Position numbers and translations under genes: made by a program
Part shown: one piece after another, positions 28,879-62,185 of the stretch
How positions within the stretch are numbered: position 1 is the first letter of the stretch
Layout: every line of letters begins with the position of its first letter
The notes under the pieces: model-generated
Databases searched by the model: none
Told to the model about the DNA's origin: nothing
Seen by the model: the letters and a program-made list of their open reading frames with translations, nothing else
NCBI RefSeq assembly: GCF_000242915.1
Contig: NZ_AFRZ01000001.1
Coordinates: forward strand, 744,001-808,000
Length of the DNA stretch: 64,000 nt
Direction of reading: 5' to 3'
Source of the DNA: Sulfurimonas gotlandica GD1
Lineage (GTDB): Bacteria > Campylobacterota > Campylobacteria > Campylobacterales > Sulfurimonadaceae

Positions 28879-29052
28879 ATGAAAAGAATTAACTGTAGAA
28901 GATGCCAATTTTATTTTGTAACATGGGAAAAGAATCAGCCTCATGGATGCAGAGCTTATGGCTTTAAAGCACCTCAGATTCCATCTCTTGTAGTTTTTCA
29001 AAGTAGTGGTATGGATTGTTCTCTGTTTAAAGAAAAGGCTCCTGTAAAATAA
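28879..29052 (+). CDS. Small conserved four-cysteine protein (57 aa)
   Basis: A short frame: ATG 28879, TAA 29050-29052, with GAGAGAG just before the start. The product begins MKRINCRRCQFYFVTWEKNQ and has CRRC (Cys6, Cys9), HGC (Cys24) and Cys47, a plausible zinc site. I recall similar roughly 55-60-residue proteins in diverse bacteria, with the HGCRAYGF segment conserved; function unknown to me. It is divergent from dut and its last 26 bp overlap the convergent PNPOx-like gene. Confidence 0.75.
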   Translation: MKRINCRRCQFYFVTWEKNQPHGCRAYGFKAPQIPSLVVFQSSGMDCSLFKEKAPVK

Positions 29053-29452
29053 TCTTCTTCCCAAATCCAAGATTATTATCTGTCATTTTAAAGTAATTTA
29101 TTTTTATCTTCCATAGCTTTGGCATCATAGCAAGAGCATATGGAAATGTTTTAAAATAAAGCTTTTTAAGAGCCTCATCCTCTAATATAGAAAAAGTTCC
29201 CCTAAACTGCAAACCCTGAATCTTACCAACCGTTTTCGTCTCTAAAACAACACTTCCGGCTACATTTGGATTTTTTATAATATTTTGTATGTGAGTTGTC
29301 TCATCACTGCTTGCAACGACAAAAGAAACCTCTTTTTCATCAAATGCATAAAAGAGGTTGCAGACACTAAGTTCTAACTCAGCCGAAGTGGCAAGACTCA
29401 TCACATGGTGCTGTTTTATAAAGTTTACGATTTTTTCTAAATCACTCTTCAT
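29027..29452 (-). CDS. PNPOx-like split-barrel flavin protein (HutZ/YhbP-like)
   Basis: A 141-residue protein with the pyridoxamine-phosphate-oxidase-like split barrel: IKQHHVMSLATSAELELSVCNLFYAFDEKEVSFVV at the start and a GKIQGLQFRGTFSIL strand later. Members include UPF0306/YhbP and haem-degrading HutZ; the exact ligand cannot be read from sequence. It overlaps the small Cys protein gene at the 3' end, and follows the 73-residue gene at 29456 head to tail on the same strand. Confidence 0.8.
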   Translation of the reverse strand: MKSDLEKIVNFIKQHHVMSLATSAELELSVCNLFYAFDEKEVSFVVASSDETTHIQNIIKNPNVAGSVVLETKTVGKIQGLQFRGTFSILEDEALKKLYFKTFPYALAMMPKLWKIKINYFKMTDNNLGFGKKIILQEPFL

Positions 29453-29455
29453 GAC

Positions 29456-29677
29456 TCAAGACTGAAACATAAAGTCTTCTAAGCCTTCTGCATCTGTTAT
29501 ATCTCTTTTGTTTAACAAAAGCTGACCGATATCATCTTCCGCTAACATATTATATATCTCTCTAGGGCCGCTCATATTGTAATAACTTTTTACAAAATCG
29601 ATAGCTACCTGAAGCTTGTCTTCTTTACCGCTGAATTTTTTAAACTCTTTGTACTCATCCCAATCAAATGCTGCCAA
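29456..29677 (-). CDS. Small acidic protein of unknown function (73 aa)
   Basis: Start is TTG at 29677, supported by AGGAA 6-7 nt upstream; there is no nearby in-frame ATG. The product (MAAFDWDEYKEFKKFSG start, GLEDFMFQS end) is helical and acidic with no motif I know. It sits between ovoB and the PNPOx-like gene on the same strand with 3-bp spacing to the latter, so it is probably cotranscribed with the ovothiol genes. Moderate support as a real gene. Confidence 0.6.
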   Translation of the reverse strand: MAAFDWDEYKEFKKFSGKEDKLQVAIDFVKSYYNMSGPREIYNMLAEDDIGQLLLNKRDITDAEGLEDFMFQS

Positions 29678-29697: not shown

Positions 29698-30894
29698 TTA
29701 TTTGCGATATTTTAGCGAAAGTGCTTTGTCTAATCGCTTAATCACTTCTAACATTTTTGTAGTAGAGACTGCAAAATTCAGTCTCATAAAGCCATCACCC
29801 TCTCTACCAAAGCTAAGACCTGCATTCAAACCGAGCTTCGCTTCTTTTATAAAAAAGCTTCTAAGGGCTCGATTATTGAGTCCCATACCTCTACAATCCA
29901 ACCAAGCCAAATACGTAGCTTCTATAGGTGTCACTTTAATCTGATCACTATATTTCTCACACAGTTCTAACAACATAGTATAGTTATTCAACAAATGCTC
30001 TTTTAAATCTTCTAGCCACTCTTTTCCTTGGCTATATGCAGCCTCAAAAGCCACATGACTTAGAGCTGAACCTTGTGCAAAATGAACACGTTTGTAAGAC
30101 TTTAAAAACTTTTCTTTTAACTCTTTATTAGTTATTGCAACACTGCTCATTGCAAAACCGGCCATATTAAAAGTCTTTCCGACTCCTATAGCTGTGACAG
30201 TTATACCTCTTGCTTCTTGTGAAAGAGATGCAAAAGGAATGTGCTTGTTTGGAGCGTAGACCAAATCAGAATGTATCTCATCACTAAAGACTACAATATT
30301 GTGTTCTAAACAGATTTCTAAAATCTCTTCAAGCTCTTCTCTTTTCCAGACTCTTCCAACTGGATTATGCGGTGAGCAAAGAAGCAGAAGTTTTGTTTTA
30401 TCATCTATTTTTGATTTCAAGTCTTCTATGTCAAAAACATATTTTCCATCTATATTTTGTTTTAGAGGGTTCTTTAATAGTTCTCTATTATTTTCAATAA
30501 CACTATGAAAAAATGGAGGGTAAACAGGTGTTTGAACTATTACCTTATCTCCTTCCTCACTAAAAGCATTTATAACTAAACCCATAGATGCAACAACAGA
30601 GTGAGAATATATCATATCTTCCAACTCAAACTCTATACCATGCTCATTTTTCATCCACTCAATCTGAGCTTTAAATGCAGTTGTAGGAAACTCTTCATAA
30701 CCGACTATAGAGTGTTCTAACCTTTTTTTAACAGCTTCTATGACGAAAGGAGGCGTGTCTATATCCATATCTGCTACCCAGACAGGCATCACGTCATTTG
30801 TTCCAAATAATGATTCTCTTAAAGTGTATTTCTCTGCATTTGTATCTTTTCTGCAAGCAGACTCTGTGAAGTTATATTTCAACGTTTTTTCCAA
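29698..30894 (-). CDS. ovoB: PLP-dependent C-S lyase, probable ovothiol lyase OvoB (MalY/PatB type)
   Basis: A 398-residue aminotransferase-fold enzyme with Lys240 (IGVGKTFNMAGF) as the PLP Schiff base and Asp205 in FSDEIHSD, of the MalY/PatB cystathionine beta-lyase group. Directly after ovoA with a 16-bp overlap, it is most simply OvoB, which cleaves the 5-histidylcysteine sulfoxide made by OvoA to 5-thiohistidine. Start is TTG (30894; a second TTG 12 bp later is possible). Without the neighbour it would be called cystathionine beta-lyase. Confidence 0.8.
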   Translation of the reverse strand: MEKTLKYNFTESACRKDTNAEKYTLRESLFGTNDVMPVWVADMDIDTPPFVIEAVKKRLEHSIVGYEEFPTTAFKAQIEWMKNEHGIEFELEDMIYSHSVVASMGLVINAFSEEGDKVIVQTPVYPPFFHSVIENNRELLKNPLKQNIDGKYVFDIEDLKSKIDDKTKLLLLCSPHNPVGRVWKREELEEILEICLEHNIVVFSDEIHSDLVYAPNKHIPFASLSQEARGITVTAIGVGKTFNMAGFAMSSVAITNKELKEKFLKSYKRVHFAQGSALSHVAFEAAYSQGKEWLEDLKEHLLNNYTMLLELCEKYSDQIKVTPIEATYLAWLDCRGMGLNNRALRSFFIKEAKLGLNAGLSFGREGDGFMRLNFAVSTTKMLEVIKRLDKALSLKYRK

Positions 30895-32978
30895 ATACTA
30901 ACTTGTGATATCGTATGCTGATATTTTCTTGCGGTCTCTTTTATAACAAAATCTAAATCTTGAACATGCAAGAGTTCAAACTTATCACTCATAACATTTT
31001 TAAGACTATCAAGAGTTTTAACTTCAACACCGTTTGAATCTACATATCCGCCAAGCCATAACTCTTTTTGAGTTGAGCTCTCTTGCCATGTATATGGTGA
31101 AGTTAAGATAAGAACTCCATCTTCATTTAATCTCTCATCGACTGTGTCTAAAAATAGTCTGGGGTTGTAAAGTCTGTCTATCAGATTTGTCGCAATTATC
31201 AGATCGTAAGAGTTAAAATTTGGCTTTAGATTACAAGCATCTCCTTGCCAAAAAGAGACTTTATCTCTTAGGTTCTCATACCCTAACTCTTCTATAGTAA
31301 CTTTTTTGTTTACTACTAAATCACCCTCTTCTTTTGAGGTAAATGCTACAAAACCATTGTCTTTTAAATTTGCTCCAACTTGTACAAAACGAACAGAAAA
31401 GTCGATTCCTTCAACCTCATCAAAATCTTTCGCAAGTTCATACGTAGCACGTCCTGTCGCACAACCGAGGTCTAAGGCTTTGCCTTTTTTAGTTGCAAAC
31501 TTTGAGGCTATCTTTGCACACTCAATAGCAAAGTTACTTACTCCAAAGTGAGTATCACCATACTGAAACTCACAATACTGAGATACCAGATCATCACTCT
31601 CATAAATATCTATTTCTTCATCATTAGAATTTTCAGAGATAACATATCTAAATCCGGCGAATTGAGGAAAATGTTTTCTAAAAGCATAACGAGAGTGTTT
31701 CATGATTAAGTTTCCGCTACTCGCCCATGATGAACCAAGTATTAGAGCATGTTTATCATCAAAAGTTGGAACGGAAAAGTCATCATAAGCCGGATGAATT
31801 TCAAAGCCTTCAAAGCCTCTTATCGGAGTACGACTCCACTGCCAAACATTTCCAACTACATCATAGATGCCGTTAAAGCTAAACTCATTTACAGGACAAG
31901 AACTTGCATAGTGATAGAAGTTCAAGTTTGCTCTGCTCTCATGAAAATCTGGCAAATCTTGTAATCCTGATTGATTATATATTGCTCTATACTCTGCTTC
32001 ACTAGGAAGAGAATAAATCACACCATCTTTTTGACTCTTGTATCTACAAAAAGCCTCTGCTTCAAGAGCATTGACATCTACGGGCCAATCAAGTGGCATC
32101 TCTATTAATTTAGAAATAGTTCTGTACCTATAATCTCCATTTTCTAAAACCCAAAAAGTCGGATATGCAGCTTTAGAATCTTTTAAAAACTCTCTTCCTT
32201 CATCGTCCCAAAACTCTTCTGTTTCGTAGCCACCATCTTTGACAAACTCCATATACTCGCTATTACTAACAAGATACTTTGAAGTTTTAAACTCTTTTAC
32301 ATCTTCTTCATAAGTGCCATATTCGTTATCCCAACCATAAAGATGATGGGTCTTCTCTTTGCCAAGTTCTATATGTTGAGCTTTTATACTTAACATCTCG
32401 TTTTTAGGTGCAGCAGAGCTATGAGAGCAGGCTTTAAATTCATCCACTTCTTTAATAAACTCCAGTGGCATCTGAGTATGAAGTACTAATGATGTCTCTA
32501 TATGGATTCTCTCATGCTCTATCCCCATAAGAATAACCCACATATCAGACTCTTGTGAAATTGGAAGATTTAAAGGCAGTGTTATTATTAGCTCATCGAC
32601 AAGCCCTCTAACTTTAGTTCGATACTCTCTAACCTCATCAACTTTAGGCCAAGAGTAGTTTTTAGAATCAACATCATCCCATGACATTTCATCAACGCCG
32701 ACAGCAAAAACAGACTCAAAATTTGCGTCTACTCTTTCGTTTATTACTTTCATACTAATTAGTTTATTTACAAAAAAAGTTGCCGTATGTCCAAAATAAA
32801 ATATCATTGGATGGCGAGTTATTTCTGACTTTCTATAAAATACATCATCATTTTTAAGTAGTTCAAACACTTTTTCAAATAGACTAAATGTGTTATGAAA
32901 ATAGTCTCTTATTTCTTGACGCTTATTTTGTATATCGTTTCCATTAAGCGTCACTGGATACATACTAAGATTACTCAA
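30879..32978 (-). CDS. ovoA: 5-histidylcysteine sulfoxide synthase / 5-thiohistidine methyltransferase OvoA
   Basis: A 699-residue fusion that makes ovothiol, a thiol-histidine antioxidant. Domains: DinB-like iron site (about 15-170) with His64 and the HX3HXE motif His155-His159-Glu161; FGE-sulfatase-like domain (about 195-435, GNVWQWSRTPIRGFEGFE); SAM-dependent N-methyltransferase (about 490-640, LDLGCATGRATYE). This three-part layout is diagnostic of OvoA as opposed to EgtB. The start may be TTG 32978 (AAAGG upstream) or ATG 32963. Its start is only 32 bp from divergent pgeF. Followed by ovoB. Confidence 0.92.
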   Translation of the reverse strand: MSNLSMYPVTLNGNDIQNKRQEIRDYFHNTFSLFEKVFELLKNDDVFYRKSEITRHPMIFYFGHTATFFVNKLISMKVINERVDANFESVFAVGVDEMSWDDVDSKNYSWPKVDEVREYRTKVRGLVDELIITLPLNLPISQESDMWVILMGIEHERIHIETSLVLHTQMPLEFIKEVDEFKACSHSSAAPKNEMLSIKAQHIELGKEKTHHLYGWDNEYGTYEEDVKEFKTSKYLVSNSEYMEFVKDGGYETEEFWDDEGREFLKDSKAAYPTFWVLENGDYRYRTISKLIEMPLDWPVDVNALEAEAFCRYKSQKDGVIYSLPSEAEYRAIYNQSGLQDLPDFHESRANLNFYHYASSCPVNEFSFNGIYDVVGNVWQWSRTPIRGFEGFEIHPAYDDFSVPTFDDKHALILGSSWASSGNLIMKHSRYAFRKHFPQFAGFRYVISENSNDEEIDIYESDDLVSQYCEFQYGDTHFGVSNFAIECAKIASKFATKKGKALDLGCATGRATYELAKDFDEVEGIDFSVRFVQVGANLKDNGFVAFTSKEEGDLVVNKKVTIEELGYENLRDKVSFWQGDACNLKPNFNSYDLIIATNLIDRLYNPRLFLDTVDERLNEDGVLILTSPYTWQESSTQKELWLGGYVDSNGVEVKTLDSLKNVMSDKFELLHVQDLDFVIKETARKYQHTISQVSIWKKR

Positions 32979-52590: not shown

Positions 52591-53826
52591 ATGAATAATT
52601 TTGAAGAGTATTGTACCAAATTTGTCCAGTCAGTTGGAAACAAAGAGGGAGCAGTTAGTCCAGCTGTGATTAATTCTGCATCTTTTGCTTATGACACGCC
52701 TGAAATAGCGGAAGGTATTTTTGATGGAAGTGTTAAAAAACCTTTATATGCACGTATGGGAAATCCAACAACAGCAAAACTAGAGTCTATTATGGCAGAT
52801 ATGGATGGTGGGGTTGCAGCAGTGGCTACAAGCTCAGGTATGGGAGCAACAACTCTTGCCTGTATGTCACTTCTTGCATCTGGAGATGAAATTATTTCCA
52901 TTGGTGGTCTTTTTGGTGGAACATATGCTCTATTTTCTGAAACTCTTACTCGTTTTGGCATCAAAACAAGATTTTTTGACGTTGACGATTTTAAAGAGAT
53001 AGAAGAAGCAATAAATGATAATACAAAAATAATCTTTTTAGAGAGTGTCGGGAATCCAAATATGAAACTTCCAGATATAAAACGCATAGCTAAAATTGCA
53101 AATGATGCGGGTGTTATTTTAATAATTGACAATACTATAACTCCTCTTAGTATCTCCCCATTAAAGCTTGGTGCGGATATCAGTGTCTATTCAACTACTA
53201 AAATTATCTCCGGAAACGCTTCAGCTCTTGGTGGCTGTGCAGTCTTTCGTGCTGTTAATGATGGTGAAGATAAACTAAAGTCTCCAAGATATGAATTCTT
53301 GGCAAAATTCATCAAAGGTGCCGGGAAAATGGCACTCTTTGCAAATGCTAAAAAAAGAGCCTTAAGGGATTTTGGAATGAGTGCTAATGCGAATGCCAGC
53401 TACCAAACTATGCTTGGGCTGGAAACACTTCCTCTAAGACTCTCTAGAATTACTCATAGTGTGGAAGTTGTAGCATCTACCCTTAGTGAAAACGGACTAA
53501 ATATTAACCATCCATGTTTAAAAACACACCCTCATCATAATAGATACATAAATGATTTTAAAAATGGATGCGGAACATTATTTACCATAGATATGGGAAG
53601 TAAACAAAGAGCATTTGAATTTTTAAACAACACAAAACTAGCTACACTTACGGCAAATATCGGAGACAATAGAACACTGGCTCTGCATATGGCATCTACC
53701 ATCTACAGAGATTTTGATGAAGAGACTAGAAAATTTCTTGGTATTACCGATGGTTTAATCCGTATATCTATAGGTCTTGAGAATCCACAAGATATTATTG
53801 ATGATTTCATTCAAGCACACAAGTAG
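52591..53826 (+). CDS. O-acetylhomoserine sulfhydrylase-like PLP enzyme
   Basis: A 411-residue Cys/Met-metabolism PLP enzyme. Signature elements: YARMGNPTTAKLE (about 50-62), TSSGMGATTLACMSLL, FLESVGNPNMKLPDI, DNTITPLSISPLKLGADISVYSTTKIISGNASALGG (PLP Lys about 204) and a C-terminal IRISIGLENPQDIIDDF. Best read as MetY/O-acetylhomoserine (thiol)-lyase; cystathionine or methionine gamma-lyase activity cannot be excluded. The clpS ATG is 6 bp downstream. Confidence 0.85.
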   Translation: MNNFEEYCTKFVQSVGNKEGAVSPAVINSASFAYDTPEIAEGIFDGSVKKPLYARMGNPTTAKLESIMADMDGGVAAVATSSGMGATTLACMSLLASGDEIISIGGLFGGTYALFSETLTRFGIKTRFFDVDDFKEIEEAINDNTKIIFLESVGNPNMKLPDIKRIAKIANDAGVILIIDNTITPLSISPLKLGADISVYSTTKIISGNASALGGCAVFRAVNDGEDKLKSPRYEFLAKFIKGAGKMALFANAKKRALRDFGMSANANASYQTMLGLETLPLRLSRITHSVEVVASTLSENGLNINHPCLKTHPHHNRYINDFKNGCGTLFTIDMGSKQRAFEFLNNTKLATLTANIGDNRTLALHMASTIYRDFDEETRKFLGITDGLIRISIGLENPQDIIDDFIQAHK

Positions 53827-57044: not shown

Positions 57045-57162
57045 ACTAGGCAGCGACCTACGTTTCCAATCCTGCAAGGATCAGTATTATCAGCGATGAG
57101 AGGCTTAGCTTCTGGGTTCGGAATGGAGCCAGGCGTTTCCCTCTCTCTATAGCCACCTAGAC
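57045..57162 (-). rRNA. rrf: 5S ribosomal RNA
   Basis: The minus strand reads CTAGGTGGC at the 5' end pairing with GCTGCCTAG at the 3' end, with CCATTCCGAACCCAGAAG and ACTGATCCTTG inside, the universal 5S layout. Last gene of the rRNA operon. Ends are approximate. 5' of it (higher coordinates) is the 23S spacer. Confidence 0.93.
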
Positions 57163-57164
57163 AA

Positions 57165-57200
57165 TCAAGTAAAAAGACACCTAGATGTTCTTTTACTTGA
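57165..57200 (-). other. Hairpin at the 23S-5S junction
   Basis: TCAAGTAAAAAGACA/TGTTCTTTTACTTGA pair over 15 bp (two mismatches) around a 6-nt loop next to the 5S 5' end, a likely RNase processing site. Further short hairpins lie at 57204-57216, 57225-57242 and 57263-57282. Confidence 0.6.
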
Positions 57201-57336
57201 CTGTATTGAGTCAATAAAGGGGTATTAATGATTTCTCATTAAGTTATGATTGTCGTGTGTCGTATGCCATTTCAAAGCATAGGACTAAAGTCAACATGTT
57301 TTTTCTAAATAACTATATGTATATTATGTAATACAC

Positions 57337-57353
57337 TAAACAAGGTAGTGAAC
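57337..57353 (-). other. 3' arm of the 23S rRNA processing stem
   Basis: A 17-nt sequence TAAACAAGGTAGTGAAC just after the 23S 3' end that is the exact reverse complement of 60261-60277 before the 5' end. A second, outer pair is 57286-57297 with 60372-60383 (12 of 12). Confidence 0.85.
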
Positions 57354-57354
57354 T

Positions 57355-60250
<2,896 letters not shown>

Positions 60251-60260
60251 TCTAATTTGC

Positions 60261-60277
60261 GTTCACTACCTTGTTTA
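60261..60277 (-). other. 5' arm of the 23S rRNA processing stem
   Basis: GTTCACTACCTTGTTTA, perfectly complementary to 57337-57353. In the folded transcript the two ends of 23S are brought together, the usual RNase III substrate. Confidence 0.85.
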
Positions 60278-60482
60278 ATGTACTTATACATCATCCAAGA
60301 CAGATCCTGTTGATTTTGTAGTTATTTAGTAATATAATTAATAATTGAATAAATTCTTTTATCTCTTATATATGTTGACTTTAACAATTATAATTTAATG
60401 AACTTTTTGGTTTTAAAACCAAATATAAACTCTTATATTTAAGAACTTATATTTGATTTTAACGCTTTATAAAAAAATGAAA

Positions 60483-60558
60483 TGGTGGAGAGTAGCGGGA
60501 TCGAACCGCTGACCTCCTGCGTGCAAGGCAGGCGCTCTCCCAGCTGAGCTAACCCCCC
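60483..60558 (-). tRNA. tRNA-Ala (TGC)
   Basis: A 76-nt cloverleaf on the minus strand with GGGGGGT acceptor arm, D arm AGCTCAGCTGGGAGAGC, anticodon loop CTTGCAC and T arm AGCGGTTCGATCCCGCT. The CCA end is encoded (60483-60485). It lies in the 16S-23S spacer and is the only tRNA there; tRNA-Ile, often paired with it, is missing from the remaining 230 bp. Confidence 0.97.
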
Positions 60559-60572
60559 ATTTCAAATGATTA

Positions 60573-60612
60573 GATCACTGAAAACTAAGCAAGTAATAAA
60601 CTAATAACTAAC
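60573..60612 (-). other. 3' arm of the 16S rRNA processing stem
   Basis: About 40 nt between 16S and tRNA-Ala that pair almost fully with 62402-62443 upstream of 16S. Together they form the long stalk cut by RNase III. Confidence 0.85.
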
Positions 60613-60669
60613 ATCTCTGTGAGATTTTCTTTGTAAGATGATCAAACGAATGATCTCTCTTTACTCTAG

Positions 60670-62185
<1,516 letters not shown>

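Follow-up and report, generated by a model that had tools for sequence, protein, structure and literature searches.

A predicted ovoA-ovoB unit for ovothiol A synthesis in Sulfurimonas gotlandica and the distribution of its genes among relatives

The genome of Sulfurimonas gotlandica GD1 very probably encodes the synthesis of ovothiol A, an antioxidant amino acid familiar mainly from sea urchins, through an ovoA-ovoB unit on the minus strand of the window analyzed here (the whole stretch of 64,000 nucleotides). The three reactions of this route are established knowledge of the OvoA and OvoB families. In S. gotlandica, ovoA and ovoB would form a translationally coupled unit, in which the N-terminal part of OvoA, with a mononuclear iron and O2, would couple cysteine to carbon 5 of histidine, giving 5-histidylcysteine sulfoxide; a PLP lyase would then cut the C-S bond, releasing 5-thiohistidine, pyruvate, and ammonia; and, finally, the C-terminal methyltransferase of OvoA, with SAM as the donor, would methylate the imidazole to yield ovothiol A. 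An earlier note on this DNA had proposed such a complete two-gene route, and, at the gene level, the intact domains and the joint inheritance of ovoA and ovoB support it; the outer coordinates given there for the pair (29698 to 32978) were correct as well.

Neither the presence of ovothiol genes in Sulfurimonas nor that of ovoA and ovoB in bacteria is new. In its passages on bacteria, PMC9103826 describes OvoA and OvoB across bacteria, some of which have lost the methyltransferase domain, relates a survey of bacterial ovoA/ovoB loci (Genome Biol. Evol. 2021, evab169) in which OvoA occurs with OvoB, as in the Sulfurimonas pair, and points to two anaerobic holders of OvoA/OvoB, with Sulfurimonas hongkongensis as one of its two references. 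The idea, also contained in the earlier note, that ovothiol belongs mainly to animals and trypanosomatids is therefore out of date. The same passages make no mention of family-wide presence, of the absence of glutathione genes, or of inserted defense genes. What is added here is the occurrence of OvoA in 94 of 101 genomes of the family alongside the near-absence of two glutamate-cysteine ligase families. In the open-licence PMC literature, nothing was found on ovothiol in Epsilonproteobacteria, Arcobacter, or Campylobacterota, and nothing that joined low-molecular-weight thiols in Campylobacter jejuni with glutathione biosynthesis.

The ovoA gene and its junction with the lyase gene

The ovoA gene (30879 to 32978; this and all features below lie on the minus strand unless stated otherwise) is a frame of 699 codons, with a TTG start at 32978 and a TGA stop at 30881 to 30879. 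Both NCBIfam models for OvoA match its 699-residue product well above their cut-offs: ovoA_Nterm (TIGR04344; 667.4 bits, cut-off 400) covers residues 8 to 446, and ovoA_Cterm, the 5-thiohistidine methyltransferase model (TIGR04345; 314.2 bits, cut-off 170), covers residues 459 to 698 (30885 to 31604), a part in which five Pfam models of class I methyltransferases also score above cut-off. Upstream of this lie an FGE-sulfatase-like domain at residues 193 to 446 (31641 to 32402; Pfam 78.9 bits, cut-off 23.3) and a DinB_2-like N-terminal domain at residues 28 to 162 (32493 to 32897), the score of which, 23.4 bits, is 1.4 bits below the Pfam cut-off of 24.8. Thus, the three-domain OvoA that had been proposed is largely borne out, the DinB-like domain being a candidate that scores slightly under the curated line; domain integrity is a direct observation.

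The protein also matches, over residues 5 to 698, PDB entry 8khq (822.7 bits; E = 2.2e-246), which is annotated as OvoA-type and which we take to be the OvoA of Methyloversatilis thermotolerans. The two share their domain order as well as three histidines and one tyrosine that presumably form the active site, with the histidines as iron ligands: His64, His155, and His159 (codons within 32502 to 32789) and Tyr398 (31785 to 31787), the last of which aligns with residue 406 of 8khq. None of these four residues varied among the 149 OvoA sequences aligned, a set in which duplicates were retained (five duplicate pairs were found among the loci) and from which, as from the lyase alignment, two copies of the locus present in the window (L001 and L119) were omitted. 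The differences from 8khq amount to ordinary divergence, along with the TTG start and the overlap with the lyase gene that characterize the S. gotlandica gene. OvoA relatives named Sulfurimonas show 86 and 84% identity, supporting the genus. Judging from these matches, we conclude that 30879 to 32978 (minus strand) encodes a full member of the OvoA family, the scores here and for the lyase being such that chance is excluded as their source.

Two related families were considered and rejected. The sulfoxide and selenoxide synthases EgtB and SenA have the DinB/FGE-sulfatase architecture in common with OvoA, but their models score far under their cut-offs (165.2 bits against 360 for EgtB and 154 against 420 for SenA). 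No match to the EgtD-type methyltransferase (PF10017) was present in the organism's own genome, and a genome-wide search at an E value of 0.001 returned OvoA as the sole FGE-sulfatase protein.

The adjoining ovoB candidate (29698 to 30882, with an alternative start at 30894) encodes a PatB-family PLP C-S lyase (TIGR04350; 543.5 bits, NCBIfam cut-off 340), for which AlphaFold returned a confident model (pLDDT of 89.6) and the PLP lysine of which (codon 30175 to 30177) is identical in 90 of 90 aligned lyases. As had been claimed, ovoA directly overlaps this MalY/PatB-type gene, the two sharing bases at the joint. When the TTG at 30894 is used as the start, the lyase frame has 398 codons and the overlap spans 16 bases; with the TTG at 30882, only 4 bases are shared (TTGA, 30882 to 30879). 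The upstream TTG sits inside Ile-Trp codons close to the C terminus of OvoA, and a junction comparison revealed Val/Ile-Trp codons at the equivalent position in many relatives. Since the 16-base overlap may accordingly be mechanical, arising from conserved OvoA codons, the preferred lyase start is the TTG at 30882, which overlaps the OvoA stop codon by 4 bases. A promoter scan gave 15 sites against 17.1 expected from shuffles (i.e., no signal above shuffles), and a terminator scan at the ovo locus provided no lead.

Probable assignment of the lyase as OvoB

By itself, the sequence of the lyase fits OvoB and another PatB lyase alike, and it is on the basis of context that we file it as OvoB. 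The nearest structures, 4dgt (323 bits) and the Staphylococcus-type PatB 6qp3 (308 bits), both outscore 5z0q, presumably the OvoB of Erwinia tasmaniensis, which belongs to the same PLP fold-type I PatB/MalY family and matches with 218.7 bits over 377 residues, a score equaled by MalY (218 bits). Of the 63 NCBIfam matches obtained, the best 25 included no model for OvoB. Given this proximity to ordinary PatB rather than to 5z0q, OvoA might be genuine and its neighbor a general PatB/MalY C-S lyase (a cystathionine or cysteine beta-lyase) that is also capable of the second step, a reading with which the description of OvoB as a beta-lyase of broad specificity, in a passage of PMC12631010, would agree.

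The distribution of the two genes makes such a general lyase improbable. In a class sample of 397 genomes, OvoA was found over cut-off in 119 and the PatB-type lyase in 193. While the lyase was present in 74 of the 278 genomes without OvoA, as would be expected of a general enzyme, it was present in 119 of 119 genomes with OvoA; OvoA without such a lyase was never seen (Fisher test, 4e-50, ignoring kinship). Within the window's family, the same sample held 48 genomes with both and 3 with neither, counts for which the kinship-sorted lists were assumed to cover the whole family. As the three family members without OvoA are also without the lyase, the enzyme would be dispensable for methionine there. 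Besides, two O-acetylhomoserine sulfhydrylases score over cut-off in the genome, representing a direct methionine route, so that no clear need for a cystathionine lyase is apparent; a third, weaker one is the Cys/Met-metabolism PLP enzyme at positions 52591 to 53826 of the window (plus strand; 328.8 bits, cut-off 495.1). The overlap between ovoA and the lyase gene likewise argues against a general lyase.

Gene order points in the same direction. In 35 of the 48 family genomes, the lyase gene directly adjoins ovoA; in 8 an insert stands between the two, and in 5 the genes lie apart. Of 80 named loci, 36 from Campylobacterota and 33 others were testable, the remaining 11 being without enough downstream sequence. 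The lyase gene was adjacent in 28 of the 36 campylobacterotal loci by reading (26 by script, L074 and L096 having been missed solely through a too early start codon), was separated by an insert in 5, and was missing from 3. Among the 33 other loci, 14 had an adjacent lyase gene (in Nitrosomonas, Nitrosospira, Methylotenera, and other Betaproteobacteria, a Methylococcaceae MAG, two Geomonas, and Pontiella) and 19 had none in the locus. Those 19 loci, together with the 5 family genomes in which the genes lie apart and the 74 lyase-bearing genomes without OvoA, count against the identification as OvoB. Nevertheless, co-inheritance of the pair is directly observed, and the presence of the lyase in every OvoA genome of the sample makes the link far stronger than a single window could show.

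In a lyase tree that included three lyases from genomes without OvoA (L174, L176, and L177) and one second copy, from a genome with OvoA (L171), these four joined one another with a support of 0.993 and were grouped apart from the remaining lyases of OvoA genomes. Small as it is, this sample fits a division between putative OvoB-like and general PatB enzymes and sets the lyases of OvoA-less genomes apart, contrary to what a general lyase beside ovoA would suggest. In summary, the earlier naming of the lyase as OvoB stands by context (119 of 119); the sequence, to which 5z0q (219 bits) is no nearer than MalY, is not specific to OvoB. Retaining OvoB as the preferred assignment, we infer that the enzyme takes the sulfoxide produced by OvoA.

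Thiol setting and possible role

OvoA was found in 94 of the 101 family genomes (in 93 of them over cut-off) and in 76 of the 79 genomes of good quality. The E. coli-type glutamate-cysteine ligase, in contrast, was found in 0 of 101 and the GCS2 type in 3 of 101. The only strong GCS2 match belonged to G404, a genome 65% complete and one of the seven without detected OvoA; the weak matches in G252 and G401 came from genomes with OvoA, and the window's own genome gave no GCS2 match. Both searches gave matches in E. coli, which served as a positive control. On this picture, which rests on the two glutamate-cysteine ligase families, most members of the family seem unable to make glutathione. The high frequency of OvoA, combined with the rarity of these ligases, makes 5-thiohistidines (ovothiol A, with unmethylated or modified forms in some genera) a tentative candidate for the family's main low-molecular-weight thiol in place of glutathione.

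Which small thiol buffers redox stress in Campylobacterota without glutathione has been under question; the passage concerned in the Nautilia profundicola genome paper (PMC2628731) reports no recognizable route to a typical redox thiol in that organism. An ovoA of near family-wide occurrence, paired with a putatively dedicated lyase, gives a definite compound to seek in these abundant sulfur-oxidizing bacteria.

OvoA requires O2, a demand that poses a testable puzzle in cells living mostly at low oxygen. A cbb3 oxidase subunit was found over cut-off in the genome, indicating a capacity for O2 use, and a supply of O2 for OvoA is therefore plausible. An intact pathway could still serve something other than peroxide scavenging, for example, as a carrier or sink of sulfane sulfur in a cell that oxidizes sulfur or as a thiol used solely at the oxic edge. 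To this we give a minor but appreciable share of the probability: the need for O2 sits uneasily with the nitrate-dependent growth for which the genus is known (a passage of PMC9789136), and, according to PMC12631010, the antioxidant role has little evidence in general. A role in sulfur metabolism, on the other hand, is countered by non-sulfur bacteria (Ancylomarina and Oceanimonas, for example) that also carry ovothiol genes, and the predicted pathway offers no direct sign of a sulfur function here. We favor ovothiol A as a redox thiol that would act under low oxygen.

End product, neighboring genes, and insertions

Instead of ovothiol A, the end product might be a different 5-thiohistidine, with additional methylation, acetylation, or conjugation. 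Variation in OvoA among relatives lends this some credence. In one genus of the family (g5), eight of nine sampled OvoA proteins are without the methyltransferase domain, and two of these eight genomes contain a separate TIGR04345 protein over cut-off (of 269 residues in G389 and within a frame of 613 residues in G176). Six further loci (L121, L124, L125, L126, L127, and L135) encode an OvoA of 620 to 646 residues with a shorter methyltransferase below the TIGR04345 cut-off, perhaps reflecting another methylation pattern. Across the family, 62 of 94 OvoA frames are long, 7 are intermediate, and 25 are short, some of the short ones being truncated by contig ends. Since the methyltransferase domain is missing or shorter in some of them, relatives of the window may make other 5-thiohistidines. 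An N-acetyltransferase for 5-thiohistidine is, moreover, known in Bacteroidota (a passage of PMC12631010), and two conserved neighbors of the pair, described below, are without a known role. For S. gotlandica itself, a different product is nonetheless quite unlikely: its methyltransferase domain is standard (314 bits, cut-off 170), and one of the two neighbors also occurs in relatives without OvoA. Ovothiol A remains the product that this cell would be predicted to make. As a side observation, in loci L129 to L133 and in genus g5, the methyltransferase-less OvoA lies beside the lyase.

The first neighbor, a 73-amino-acid open reading frame (ORF) following ovoB (29456 to 29677), is probably cotranscribed with it and has homologues in 29 other loci. 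It gave no Pfam match at an E value of 0.1; it is predicted to be a five-helix protein (pLDDT of 88.2), and a fold search returned 41 matches at an E value of 10 and none at 0.001. In L061, the homologue is located away from ovoB. We conclude that this ORF is not needed for the ovothiol pathway. The second, a YhbP-like protein with a flavin-binding fold (29027 to 29452; Pfam PNPOx_N over cut-off with 30.1 bits, NCBIfam YhbP 120.7 bits, cut-off 176), is encoded downstream of ovoB across most of the family. Its candidacy as the third gene of the pathway was rejected, since an alignment search detected the protein in 232 of the 397 class genomes, including the three family members without OvoA; the same search did not find it in G060, a genome with OvoA. 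It is a conserved neighbor that is not specific to ovothiol.

While ovoA and ovoB join without an insert in the window, 1 to 5 kb of DNA is inserted at this joint in 7 of the 29 genomes of its genus (L134 to L140). At the next joint, between ovoB and the YhbP-like gene, an insert was seen in 1 of the 29. The excess is suggestive only (7 of 28 against 1 of 28; Fisher test, 0.051, borderline). PADLOC assigned families of known or candidate defense proteins to six of the seven inserts (restriction-modification, KilA-N/ORF6N, and PD-T7-4-like or ApeA-like), and, among four named loci with an insert that were also tested, L035, L036, and L042 were positive and L033 was negative; these counts cover the main inserted ORFs. 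Both ovoA and ovoB are intact in the insert-bearing loci. Elsewhere in the window, a complete rRNA operon (16S, tRNA-Ala[TGC], 23S, and 5S) occupies positions 57045 to 62185 on the minus strand.
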